Origin: Marinobacter sp. LV10R510-11A
Lineage (GTDB): Bacteria > Pseudomonadota > Gammaproteobacteria > Pseudomonadales > Oleiphilaceae
Direction: 5' to 3'
Assembly (NCBI RefSeq): GCF_900215155.1
Contig: NZ_LT907980.1
Coordinates: 3,596,001 to 3,660,000, forward strand
DNA length: 64,000 bases
This document shows positions 35,990 to 38,207 of the stretch, piece after piece. The notes below the pieces were generated by a model that saw only the letters and a list, made by a program, of their open reading frames with translations, was not told the origin of the DNA and did not search any database. Made by a program: the position numbers and the translations under genes. Each line of letters starts with the position of its first letter. Position 1 is the first letter of the stretch.

Positions 35990-36778
35990 TCAGTGTACAA
36001 CCTCGACTTTTACCTCGAAACTCCGGTTGTCTGACCGGCTGCTCTTAACGCTGTAGGCAATACCTGACTGCTTGCTGGTGGATTGGGTTGAAGTGCTGCC
36101 TAGAGACACCCACTGGCCCGGCTCCACTCTGCGAACCGTGACCAGCGCTTGAGTGTCATACCCTTCAAGCTCTGCGGGATCCGCTTCAAAAGAGGTAATG
36201 TTCAGTTCTATAGCGCGGTCTGAAATAACCTGCGGACTGACAACAAACCCGCTGCGAGTTTCTATCTGCTCAAAAATGGCCGCCGGGTTTCTGCCTCCAC
36301 GTACTGCAAAGGGTAACGTTCGCACCTGGCCCGAGGTGATGTGAGCAGATTGCCCATCCATAACCACTAGGCTTCGCTCTTGGGAGCCACCGGTGCTTGT
36401 AACCCGGCGCTCCACGGTTACGCCAAGGTTGTTTCGTGTTGTGGTTACTCCGCCGCCGGAGCGTTTGCCGCCGATATCTTCCGTGGATCGCACGGAGATG
36501 CGGAGCTGGGCTTGAGCTACGTCGAGGGTTTCAATTAAAGTGCCGATTTCATCCAGCAGTTGCTGATTGCCGCGCACCACAAGCTGCTGCCCCTGGGCAG
36601 TGATTGATACAGGCTCACCTTGATACAACTCCCGCACTTGGCTGGCCACATCGTCACCCGGCCGGTTGTTAAGCTGGTAGGCTCGGGACTCAGCGTGTGC
36701 AGAACCGGTACCGGAGCTGAGTGCCAGCACGAGCATAAAGAAGAACAAAGTGGTGCAATTCCGTAGGTTCAATGTCAT
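35990..36778 (-). CDS. Short secretin-like exported protein (N1-type domain plus partial secretin fold)
   Basis: A 262-residue exported protein with a signal peptide ending AHAES. The first domain (AYQLNNRPGDDVASQVRELYQGEPVSITAQG...LVVRGNQQLLDEIGTLIETLDVAQAQLRISV) matches the KH-like N domains of type II/III secretins. The rest resembles the start of the secretin homology domain (ERSLVVMDGQSAHITSGQ) but is far too short to form a pore. No secretion genes are nearby. GGAG precedes the ATG. It may be a regulator or pilotin-like partner, but no function is assigned. Confidence 0.7.
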   Translation of the reverse strand: MTLNLRNCTTLFFFMLVLALSSGTGSAHAESRAYQLNNRPGDDVASQVRELYQGEPVSITAQGQQLVVRGNQQLLDEIGTLIETLDVAQAQLRISVRSTEDIGGKRSGGGVTTTRNNLGVTVERRVTSTGGSQERSLVVMDGQSAHITSGQVRTLPFAVRGGRNPAAIFEQIETRSGFVVSPQVISDRAIELNITSFEADPAELEGYDTQALVTVRRVEPGQWVSLGSTSTQSTSKQSGIAYSVKSSRSDNRSFEVKVEVVH

Positions 36779-36812
36779 TTCTGGCTCCCTTTTACCCGAA
36801 AATTATTCGAAA

Positions 36813-36843
36813 AATCCGGTTTGTTTGCTAAATAATCCGGTTT
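36813..36843 (+). promoter_or_regulatory. Direct repeats AATCCGGTTT upstream of the aroG leader promoter
   Basis: AATCCGGTTT occurs at 36813-36822 and again at 36834-36843, starts 21 bp apart, that is two helical turns on the same DNA face. They end 5 bp before a candidate -35 element. This arrangement suits a dimeric regulator, but none is identified. Confidence 0.4.
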
Positions 36844-36848
36844 ACGGG

Positions 36849-36878
36849 TTGCCAAGTTGAAAACCCAGGGGGTATATT
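36849..36878 (+). promoter_or_regulatory. Candidate promoter for the aroG leader transcript
   Basis: TTGCCA (36849-36854) and TATATT (36873-36878) are separated by 18 bp. Transcription would then begin near 36885, at or just before the first ATG of the leader ORF, so either the leader is leaderless or translation starts at the internal ATG 36946. An alternative promoter farther upstream cannot be excluded. Confidence 0.4.
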
Positions 36879-36885
36879 GGTAAGC

Positions 36886-37023
36886 ATGAAGACGACACAA
36901 GCGCTCTGTCAATTGAATGTTCTGCAAGCTTTCGGCCAAAAACCGATGGTGGCAGTCGCGGCTGTGTTTTGCTGGTGGTTTGGTTATGGCTTTTACTTTA
37001 GCCAGCGTCAGGGCCGCCCATAG
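36886..37023 (+). CDS. Aromatic-rich leader peptide upstream of DAHP synthase
   Basis: A 45-codon ORF, or 25 codons if started at the in-frame ATG 36946. Near its end residues 28-38 read FCWWFGYGFYF, placing eight Phe, Tyr and Trp codons in an eleven-codon stretch; Phe16 is a ninth aromatic codon. The end is SQRQGRP and a TAG at 37021. Such a cluster at the end of a small ORF just before a terminator is the hallmark of ribosome-mediated attenuation, and the amino acids match the end products of the pathway the next gene starts. The ribosome site is weak for both starts, which is the main doubt. Confidence 0.72.
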   Translation: MKTTQALCQLNVLQAFGQKPMVAVAAVFCWWFGYGFYFSQRQGRP

Positions 37024-37123
37024 CATCTTCAAAAAACGAACAACGAGGATGGCAGCCCGGCGAAAAACCAGGCTGCCATCGGACTCAGAAAGCCCCGACT
37101 GGTAGCCCAGCCGGGGCTTTTTT
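37011..37123 (+). terminator. Transcription attenuator with alternative hairpins, upstream of aroG
   Basis: Four pairings are possible. Segment A (37011-37021, overlapping the leader stop) can pair with B (37049-37058), imperfectly. B, as GATGGCAGCC (37048-37057), pairs perfectly with C, GGCTGCCATC (37071-37080). C, as GGCTGCCA, can pair with TGGTAGCC (37100-37107) in D with one G-U. D (37089-37102) with E (37107-37120) forms the terminator: AAAGCCCCG and CTGG stem parts and six Ts at 37118-37123. In the model, a ribosome finishing the leader hides A, B pairs with C, and the terminator forms; a ribosome stalled on aromatic codons leaves A free, so C frees D from the terminator. Confidence 0.7.
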
Positions 37124-37154
37124 GATTCTGATGCAGGGAAACGGGAACACAGAT

Positions 37155-38207
37155 ATGAACATGCCTTTGAAAACAGCCGGAGAAGACCAGATGATTAGCT
37201 CCGCGGTCACGCATCGGCTGGAAACCGCACTGCCAACGCCGGCTGAACTACGGGCGCGTTTGCCTGTCGAAGAACAGCTAGCCGAGCAGGTAGACAAGCA
37301 CCGGCAAGCTGTTCGAAGCATTCTGCACGGTACCGATAATCGCACCCTACTGGTGGTCGGGCCCTGCTCAATTCATGACGAAGTTGCTGCGCTGGAGTAT
37401 GGCGAAAAGCTCAAAGCGTTGGCGGATGCGGTCAGCGATAAGTTTCTTATTGTTATGCGCGCCTACGTGGAAAAGCCGAGAACAACCGTAGGCTGGAAGG
37501 GTTTGCTGTACGATCCTGAGCGCACAGGGGCCGGTGATATTAACGAGGGCTTGCTACGTTCACGTCGTTTGCTTCTGAACCTGGCCGAGATGGGTCTGCC
37601 GCTGGCCACCGAGGCATTGAGCCCCTTTGCTATGGATTACATGGGTGATCTGGTGAGTTGGACAGCCATCGGCGCCCGCACCACCGAATCCCAGATTCAC
37701 CGTGAGGTGGTCAGTGGCCTGCCCATGCCTGCGGGGTTCAAGAACGGTACCGATGGCGGAATCAGTGTTGCTATTAATGCCATGAAGTCGGGAGCTCACC
37801 CGCATCATCACTTGGGCGTTTCCAGCCATGGCTCGCCGGTCATGGTCAGCACTCGGGGCAATCCGGACACCCATCTAGTGTTGCGTGGCGGTCGGGGGAT
37901 TACCAATTATGACGAAGCGAGTACTCAGCATGCCGCGCATAGCCTGTCTGAAGCAGGGCTGTGCGCTGCCATTATGGTGGACTGTAGTCACGACAATGCC
38001 TGTAAGCAGGTTGAGCGACAGATAGACATCGCCCGTGAAGTGATGCGCCAGAAACGGGCAGGTAGCGCGAGCATTCGCGGGCTCATGCTGGAGAGTTTTC
38101 TTGAGGCTGGCCGGCAGGACGACGGTGATGATTTGCGCTACGGCTGCTCTATTACCGACCCGTGCTTAAGTTGGGATCAGACTGAGGCTCTGCTCCGCTC
38201 ACTTTAG
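37155..38207 (+). CDS. aroG: 3-deoxy-7-phosphoheptulonate synthase, class I (AroG/AroF/AroH type)
   Basis: A 350-residue enzyme condensing phosphoenolpyruvate and erythrose 4-phosphate, the first shikimate-pathway step. Signatures: LLVVGPCSIHD (metal Cys), MRAYVEKPRTTVGWKGLLYDPE, IGARTTESQIHRE, GFKNGTDGG, LRGGRG and VDCSHDNACK. The start is placed at ATG 37155 (MNMPLK); ATG 37131, ATG 37161 and a TTG at 37122 are alternatives. Its feedback class (Phe, Tyr or Trp) cannot be told. It is preceded by an aromatic leader peptide and terminator, indicating control by aromatic amino acid supply. Confidence 0.93.
   Translation: MNMPLKTAGEDQMISSAVTHRLETALPTPAELRARLPVEEQLAEQVDKHRQAVRSILHGTDNRTLLVVGPCSIHDEVAALEYGEKLKALADAVSDKFLIVMRAYVEKPRTTVGWKGLLYDPERTGAGDINEGLLRSRRLLLNLAEMGLPLATEALSPFAMDYMGDLVSWTAIGARTTESQIHREVVSGLPMPAGFKNGTDGGISVAINAMKSGAHPHHHLGVSSHGSPVMVSTRGNPDTHLVLRGGRGITNYDEASTQHAAHSLSEAGLCAAIMVDCSHDNACKQVERQIDIAREVMRQKRAGSASIRGLMLESFLEAGRQDDGDDLRYGCSITDPCLSWDQTEALLRSL

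Follow-up and report, generated by a model that had tools for sequence, protein, structure and literature searches.

A probable aromatic-sensing attenuator in front of a DAHP synthase gene of Marinobacter

Transcriptional control of DAHP synthase, at the entry to the shikimate pathway, is best known through TyrR and TrpR. The trp and pheA attenuators of gammaproteobacteria, like the locus studied here, carry control codons for a product of the pathway and set a terminator against an antiterminator, but they serve terminal pathway branches and read one amino acid each, pheA included. The segments of the his attenuator are lettered A to F, and the primary paper on the aroR leader of Corynebacterium glutamicum is reportedly that of Neshat 2014. 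This aroR, located before aroF, likewise unites a leader peptide with aromatic codons (Phe-Tyr-Phe), attenuation and a DAHP synthase gene; it belongs to an actinobacterium, however, its stalling is described under Phe limitation, the relevant passages of the papers mention no Trp codons, and the likeness is one by description (PMC11802643, PMC4046766).

The his attenuator of E. coli and Salmonella also has an extra hairpin between leader and terminator within a chain of alternative pairings, although it reads His codons and serves another operon. The passages on this hairpin argue that it holds down basal read-through and that trp, which has four regions, has the Trp repressor instead (PMC1183508); control of trp by TrpR as well is stated in the corresponding part of PMC5343134. 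In Sinorhizobium meliloti, the trpL RNA starts at the leader ATG, as is predicted below for the Marinobacter leader, but trpL reads Trp only and belongs to an alphaproteobacterium, and the passage concerned states the start from earlier cited work (PMC7298713). Before gammaproteobacterial DAHP synthase genes, RNA control by attenuators was predicted computationally for Shewanella aroF/aroH (PMC2659441 Table 3) and for Vibrio aroA-I-alpha_Y > tyrA (PMC1173090 Table 7); these predictions concern other lineages, and the tables and accompanying passages describe no aromatic leader peptide.

We analysed a 64,000-nucleotide stretch of Marinobacter sp. LV10R510-11A, referred to as the window, from a genome that consists of a single contig of 4.44 Mb. 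With high probability, a locus within it controls a single DAHP synthase gene by ribosome-mediated transcription attenuation in response to a lack of Phe, Tyr or Trp. No earlier description of its leader was recognised in the open-access literature searched, as far as the accessible text of these papers goes, and subscription papers may mention it. Each part of the element is known; the combination (three aromatics, six segments, a putatively leaderless start and a position at pathway entry) appears to be undescribed in the literature searched.

The leader, its gene and the predicted transcript start

The first-pass annotation of this DNA had proposed an aromatic leader ORF in front of a DAHP synthase gene, and both were found. 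The features of this part of the locus are as follows.

36849..36854, plus strand: predicted -35 element TTGCCA of the best sigma-70-like promoter found ahead of the leader, with a spacer of 18
36873..36878, plus strand: predicted -10 element TATATT, ending 7 nt before the leader ATG
36886..37023, plus strand: leader peptide ORF (ATG...TAG, 45 aa), encoding MKTTQALCQLNVLQAFGQKPMVAVAAVFCWWFGYGFYFSQRQGRP, with the aromatic run F28-F38
36907..36921, plus strand: conserved block TGTCAATTGAATGTT inside the leader ORF, encoding CQLNV, almost free of synonymous change
36967..36999, plus strand: control codons F28, W30, W31, F32, Y34, F36, Y37 and F38
37155..38207, plus strand: gene for a class I DAHP synthase (AroF/G/H type) of 350 aa

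The downstream product matched TIGR00034 above its cut-off, and PF00793, in profile searches, confirming it as a DAHP synthase. Its closest solved structures by sequence are 6agm and 6agl, named as a Tyr-sensitive aldolase, and its nearest proteins come from named Marinobacter genomes, the best at ~90% full-length identity. The window has 1237 mechanical ORFs of 9-80 aa, counting both strands; a single one had eight aromatics within 12 residues near its end, all others having at most six. The genome's second DAHP synthase, a paralogue with 50% identity, has no ORF with five or more aromatics in its upstream region (L102). On the other side of the leader, a divergent gene (35990-36778, minus strand) encodes a 262-aa product with a match to Secretin_N and a below-cut-off match to Secretin; the column of its start codon appears to be kept beside the leader in the Marinobacter alignment.

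Conservation of the leader was surveyed in the best 80 of 224 Marinobacter loci, from which L023 and L079 were dropped for want of upstream DNA. All 78 usable loci carry it, with 7-10 aromatics per 12 residues, and both Trp codons are invariant (76/76 loci). Synonymous exchange occurs at several leader positions, and insertions or deletions within the aromatic run measure 3 nt, as expected of a translated sequence. The distance from the last aromatic codon to the stop codon is 24 nt in 76 of the 78 loci; among 27 loci outside Marinobacter, 13 have this same distance and the others 15-39 nt.

The predicted promoter is kept along with the leader. At the -35 position, most of the aligned Marinobacter sequences inspected have TTGC and then C or A, and the predicted -10 element ends 7 nt before the ATG in 74 of the 76 scored Marinobacter loci (6 and 40 nt in the other two), in a search open from 3 to 59 nt. 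It ends 6-7 nt before the start in 14 of 17 same-type loci of other lineages, a count less independent than that for Marinobacter since the start codons of these 17 loci were picked by hand after the Marinobacter pattern. Scoring left out L035 and L047 (start not found), as well as five of the 28 leader loci outside Marinobacter (L086, L095, L100, L133 and L141), and L087 was shortened. A Shine-Dalgarno-like motif (GGAG, GAGG or AGGA) between -16 and -5 is absent from the window and from all 17 of those loci. Judging from the promoter spacing, the RNA would probably start at or beside the leader AUG and so be leaderless. Six loci of the families f20, f36 and f43 have their best promoter in another position, and a Shine-Dalgarno-like sequence is present in five of them. 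Four loci of f20 and f43 (L134, L136, L137 and L140) have a leader with GGAG and a more distant best promoter, and the end of their ORF can pair with sequence just past the stop codon. They seem to represent the same attenuator with an ordinary start, so that the sensor, to go by these sequence patterns, seems to exist in both leaderless and ordinary versions.

Where its residues are kept, the conserved block uses the same codons almost throughout Marinobacter (TGT 75/76, CAA 76/76, TTG 72/74, AAT 73/76 and GTT 72/72), and TGTCAA recurs in some other genera. Its minus strand contains TTGACA, which may be the -35 element of the divergent gene; no good -10 element was seen after it.

Alternative pairings and their coevolution

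Between the aromatic codons and the DAHP synthase gene, the RNA can be divided into the following segments.

36970..36983, plus strand: segment 0, the Trp-Trp-Phe codons, able to pair with the ORF end at 37008-37025 (minimum-energy fold)
37011..37018, plus strand: segment 1, GGGCCGCC at the ORF end, partner of segment 0 or segment 2
37048..37058, plus strand: segment 2, 5' arm of the intermediate hairpin, partner of segment 3 or segment 1
37071..37082, plus strand: segment 3, 3' arm of the intermediate hairpin, partner of segment 2 or, in the antiterminator, of segment 4
37095..37107, plus strand: segment 4, CCGACTGGTAGCC, 5' side of the terminator and antiterminator partner of segment 3
37090..37123, plus strand: intrinsic terminator, stem 37090-37119 and T-run 37118-37123

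The perfect 10-bp hairpin claimed by the first-pass annotation is present (37048-37057 with 37071-37080), as is a strong terminator with six Ts before the gene (stem 37090-37119, Ts 37118-37123). The two pieces said to pair with each other, the hairpin arm GGCTGCCA (37071-37078) and its terminator-side complement TGGTAGCC (37100-37107), lie where they had been placed, and the antiterminator extends into the lower terminator stem by pairing of 37079-37082 with 37095-37098. The stop-proximal piece does occur at the end of the ORF, but its extent is 37011-37018 instead of the 37011-37021 given earlier. Folding of 36886-37123, which had been suggested as a check, gave -96 kcal/mol as compared to -77.3 +/- 4.25 for shuffled sequences (z -4.4, 0/200). 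No Rfam family was found above its cut-off in the window; a relaxed search of 36780-37200 gave Phe_leader at 16.0 bits (gathering score 55) and His_leader, on the other strand, at 16.4 (gathering score 49), with Trp_leader not listed.

When the nascent RNA was folded up to 37107, the predicted structure was the 2:3 hairpin with segment 1 covered; with segment 1 free, it became 1:2 together with a 3:4 helix of 12 bp. For the full-length RNA, the terminator is the predicted fold in every ribosome position tried, so read-through would have to come from kinetic trapping, as in known attenuators. With the 0:1 pairing added, the RNA is best read, from its predicted pairings, as a six-segment chain (0:1, 1:2, 2:3, 3:4 and the terminator) similar to that of the his attenuator.

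These features suggest a switch of the following kind. Transcription would begin at the leader AUG. A ribosome finishing the leader would sit on the stop codon and cover segment 1, whereupon segments 2 and 3 would pair, segment 4 would be left free and the terminator would form. A ribosome stalled with any aromatic codon from 28 to 38 in its A site would instead lie over control codons and leave segment 1 free; segment 1 would then pair with segment 2 and segment 3 with segment 4, blocking the terminator and allowing read-through. The element would thereby act as an OR gate over three amino acids, shortage of any one of them giving read-through. If there is no translation, 0:1, 2:3 and the terminator would form according to the minimum-energy fold, and transcription would end. 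The ribosome covers ~14 nt ahead of its A site, and with this general figure a ribosome that has F38 in the A site would reach ~37010, one base short of segment 1; the last aromatic codon being 24 nt before the stop, a stalled ribosome would thus end just short of the segment that has to remain free.

The same logic, termination after full translation and read-through upon stalling at aromatic codons, had been put forward in the first-pass annotation, and conservation of the leader together with coevolution of the pairings argues for it. Coevolution was examined first within Marinobacter, using alignment A1 of 56 sequences (the window plus 55 of 73 distinct stretches, from which L003 and L034, having no uninterrupted T-run, were left out). 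The 0:1, 2:3 and terminator pairs are kept in 92.6% of cells; for these terminator-state pairs, the percentage paired and the covariation score lay above all 500 shuffles, and two of five measures did not exceed the shuffles (95/500 and 321/500). The 1:2 and 3:4 pairs are near-invariant (94.6% kept) and did not exceed the shuffles (434/500 for percentage paired, 82/500 for the covariation score), a comparison that is uninformative within the genus because these pairs hardly vary. Alignment A2 spans several genera with 26 sequences; here too, the terminator state had a percentage paired and a covariation score above all 500 shuffles, with two other measures not above them (52/500 and 249/500), and eight lower-stem terminator pairs are kept in 100% of cells. 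For the antiterminator, these 26 sequences gave mixed support, the shuffle counts being 1/500 for pairs changed on both sides, 4/500 for percentage paired and 302/500 for the covariation score.

A swap test was used to compare lineages. The duplex energy of each segment with its own partner was compared with that for partners from other loci, with row and column means removed, in 20000 permutations over 22 loci: the window plus 21 of the 28 leader loci found outside Marinobacter, one per genus and two each of g4 and g58. On average, all neighbouring segments fit their own partners better than those of other loci (0:1, P 0.0014; 1:2, 2:3 and 3:4, 0/20000 permutations each), in contrast to the non-adjacent controls 0:2 (P 0.23), 1:4 (P 0.56) and 2:4 (P 0.78). 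When the loci were split, 1:2 gave P 0.0025 and 3:4 gave 0/20000 in 15 loci, and the values were P 0.0008 and P 0.028, respectively, in the seven loci of f20, f36 and f43. Under the first definition of the segments, 2:3 and 3:4 already stood at 0/20000 and 1:2 at P 0.25; the segments were then widened because, for one group of loci, this definition had lost the portion of segment 2 adjoining the stop codon. The mutually exclusive pairings that had been proposed therefore coevolve between lineages, 1:2 being included only after this widening. In some lineages (e.g., L094 and L135), the pairing arms differ greatly in sequence, and the fit of partners despite such divergence is the strongest evidence for the switch.

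Nascent folding was extended to other loci. With the ribosome stalled, the terminator was blocked in 68 of 78 Marinobacter loci and 25 of 27 others, as compared to 32 and 15, respectively, with the ribosome at the stop codon; L003 and L141 gave no terminator. The window stood out, with 2.3 terminator nucleotides blocked at the stop, 10.7 when stalled and 7.0 with segment 1 shuffled, one of 40 shuffles being as high as the stalled state. Over the 22 loci, the mean was 8.1 when stalled and 5.4 at the stop (higher when stalled in 17/22), and shuffling segment 1 still gave 7.9 (stalled above shuffled in 16/22, Wilcoxon P 0.034). Three loci (L092, L094 and L138) do not fit this switch, L094 being clearly opposite. 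We rejected nascent folding as a cross-lineage proof, since the shuffle control largely reproduces the shift, and the case for the switch rests on the swap test.

The coevolution of segment 1 also bears on another explanation of the leader, i.e., a TnaC-type arrest sensor in which the peptide binds a free aromatic amino acid in the tunnel and stalls at the stop codon, so that aromatic excess and not shortage of charged tRNA decides. The length of the peptide, its conservation within Marinobacter well beyond the aromatic codons and its Gly-Arg-Pro end in 67 of 78 Marinobacter loci would suit such a sensor. The C-terminal residues vary by lineage, however (GHA, GRL, GHV, APV, RRA, RRV and others), instead of showing conserved arrest residues across lineages. 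Their codons overlie segment 1, and since this segment and segment 2 coevolve as pairing partners, RNA pairing can explain the C-terminal residues. A stall at the stop codon would, furthermore, mask segment 1 and favour termination, so that aromatic excess would still mean off. We consider such an arrest sensor highly unlikely and retain attenuation by ribosome stalling at the aromatic codons.

Occurrence of the element in related genomes

Conservation of the aromatic codons in relatives, also suggested as a check, holds within the genus, and leaders of a similar kind are present in many further genera. In 60 further upstream regions of DAHP synthase genes (19 from other genera of the family, one of the genome's own paralogue and 40 from the order), a short ORF with at least six aromatics per 12 residues was present in 28, as compared to two of 60 on the reverse strand. 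Ten of the order-level loci encode a protein with 55% identity or more to the query, and nine of them have a leader, as do two of the 30 below 55%; the leader is therefore tied mainly to one DAHP synthase lineage. The one of these ten in which no aromatic leader was found upstream is L146 (G133), with a protein 56% identical. The cut of six aromatics overlooks at least one likely leader, L158 (G114), which would be a third in the group below 55%, scored five and is outside the 28: from ~248 to 146 nt before the DAHP synthase gene, it has GWWFTYF near its end, a hairpin and terminator, the same kind of complementarity and a weak match to the RNA model described below.

A class-wide search of 229 genomes gave 30 loci, namely the query's own and L173-L201. 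Of the 29 others, 27 could be oriented, and these contained one clear leader, L173, which is outside the order. The unoriented L174 coincides with L136, a locus that does have a leader. L194 was rejected as a leader; its score of 6 comes from two overlapping ORFs, and it is unlike a leader.

A covariance model built from 26 loci was used to search 293 genomes of the order. It yielded 18 copies of at least 71 bits, the next best match having 38 bits, and all 18 precede a DAHP synthase gene on the same strand. At an E value of 0.001, 112 of the 293 genomes were called; matches of 38 bits or less were treated as mostly ordinary terminators. Among the weak matches, three of 12 inspected loci precede a DAHP synthase gene, and at least five fall within the fetched upstream regions of such genes (G075, G082, G111, G114 and G131). 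The 18 strong copies are thus a lower bound, and the model overlooks part of the family.

The strict association of the strong copies with DAHP synthase genes, together with the coevolving antiterminator, points to regulation in cis. Action in trans by a small RNA or a conserved small protein, comparable to that reported for peTrpL/rnTrpL of Sinorhizobium, with the terminator serving only to end the transcript, is consistent with the CQLNV block that is almost without synonymous change, and the trpL leader of S. meliloti, in the part of that study which treats it, is a leaderless leader with trans roles (PMC7298713). Given the evidence for cis control, we give this explanation very little credence as a replacement for the attenuator; a trans role could exist in addition to it.

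A second short ORF containing TGGCGATTTA (Trp-Arg-Phe followed by Ser, Ile, Asn or Arg) precedes the DAHP synthase gene in 14 of the 60 non-Marinobacter regions (L083, L085, L086, L087, L092, L093, L095, L134, L136, L137, L140, L141, L142 and L148), all of which also carry the first leader. The string was absent from the reverse strand of the 60 regions and from the 78 Marinobacter loci; only exact matches were taken, which leaves variants like the one in L135 outside this count. A run of at least five Ts follows the second ORF in only two of the 14 (L086 and L087), and this ORF is mostly without an intrinsic terminator.

Regulatory setting and significance

Neither a TyrR-type HTH (TIGR04381) nor TrpR (PF01371) was found in the Marinobacter genome, E. 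coli being positive in both control sets; the TrpR search covered this genome only. The TyrR-type HTH occurred in one of the 18 genomes with strong covariance-model copies (a weak match, 38 bits) vs 64 of the 275 others. However, six of the eight leader genomes of f20, f36 and f43 have it (G059, G099, G111, G118, G131 and G139; not G075 and G082), so the absence of TyrR is not a rule. A broader interpretation is that a leaderless OR-logic sensor of three aromatics is the main transcriptional control of shikimate entry, replacing TyrR/TrpR, in a self-contained attenuator family whose members in related lineages gained the second Trp-Arg-Phe ORF as a further checkpoint, mostly without an intrinsic terminator. 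This is possible, though we regard it as rather doubtful.

Plain promoter control, with a repressor whose operator is 36907-36921 and hairpins that only set mRNA stability or its end, would account for conservation of the block at the nucleotide level, and the minus-strand TTGACA could serve the divergent gene, but the aromatic codons, the stop distance fixed within the genus and the alternative pairings would be left unexplained, which makes it extremely improbable.

Under the preferred interpretation, attenuation by ribosomes stalled at Phe, Tyr or Trp codons, one RNA appears to read all three end products at the pathway entry, in a genome without detected TyrR or TrpR, and we infer that expression of the DAHP synthase would rise when any of the three is short. 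The extra hairpin of the his type is what the model set out in the relevant passages of PMC1183508 favours for an attenuator that has no repressor beside it; having such a hairpin where the repressors were not found, the Marinobacter element fits this model, although the fit is not general. The family also provides many natural variants (putatively leaderless, with a Shine-Dalgarno sequence, and with a tandem second ORF) for directly testing stalling and RNA switching, and is a candidate for inclusion in Rfam.
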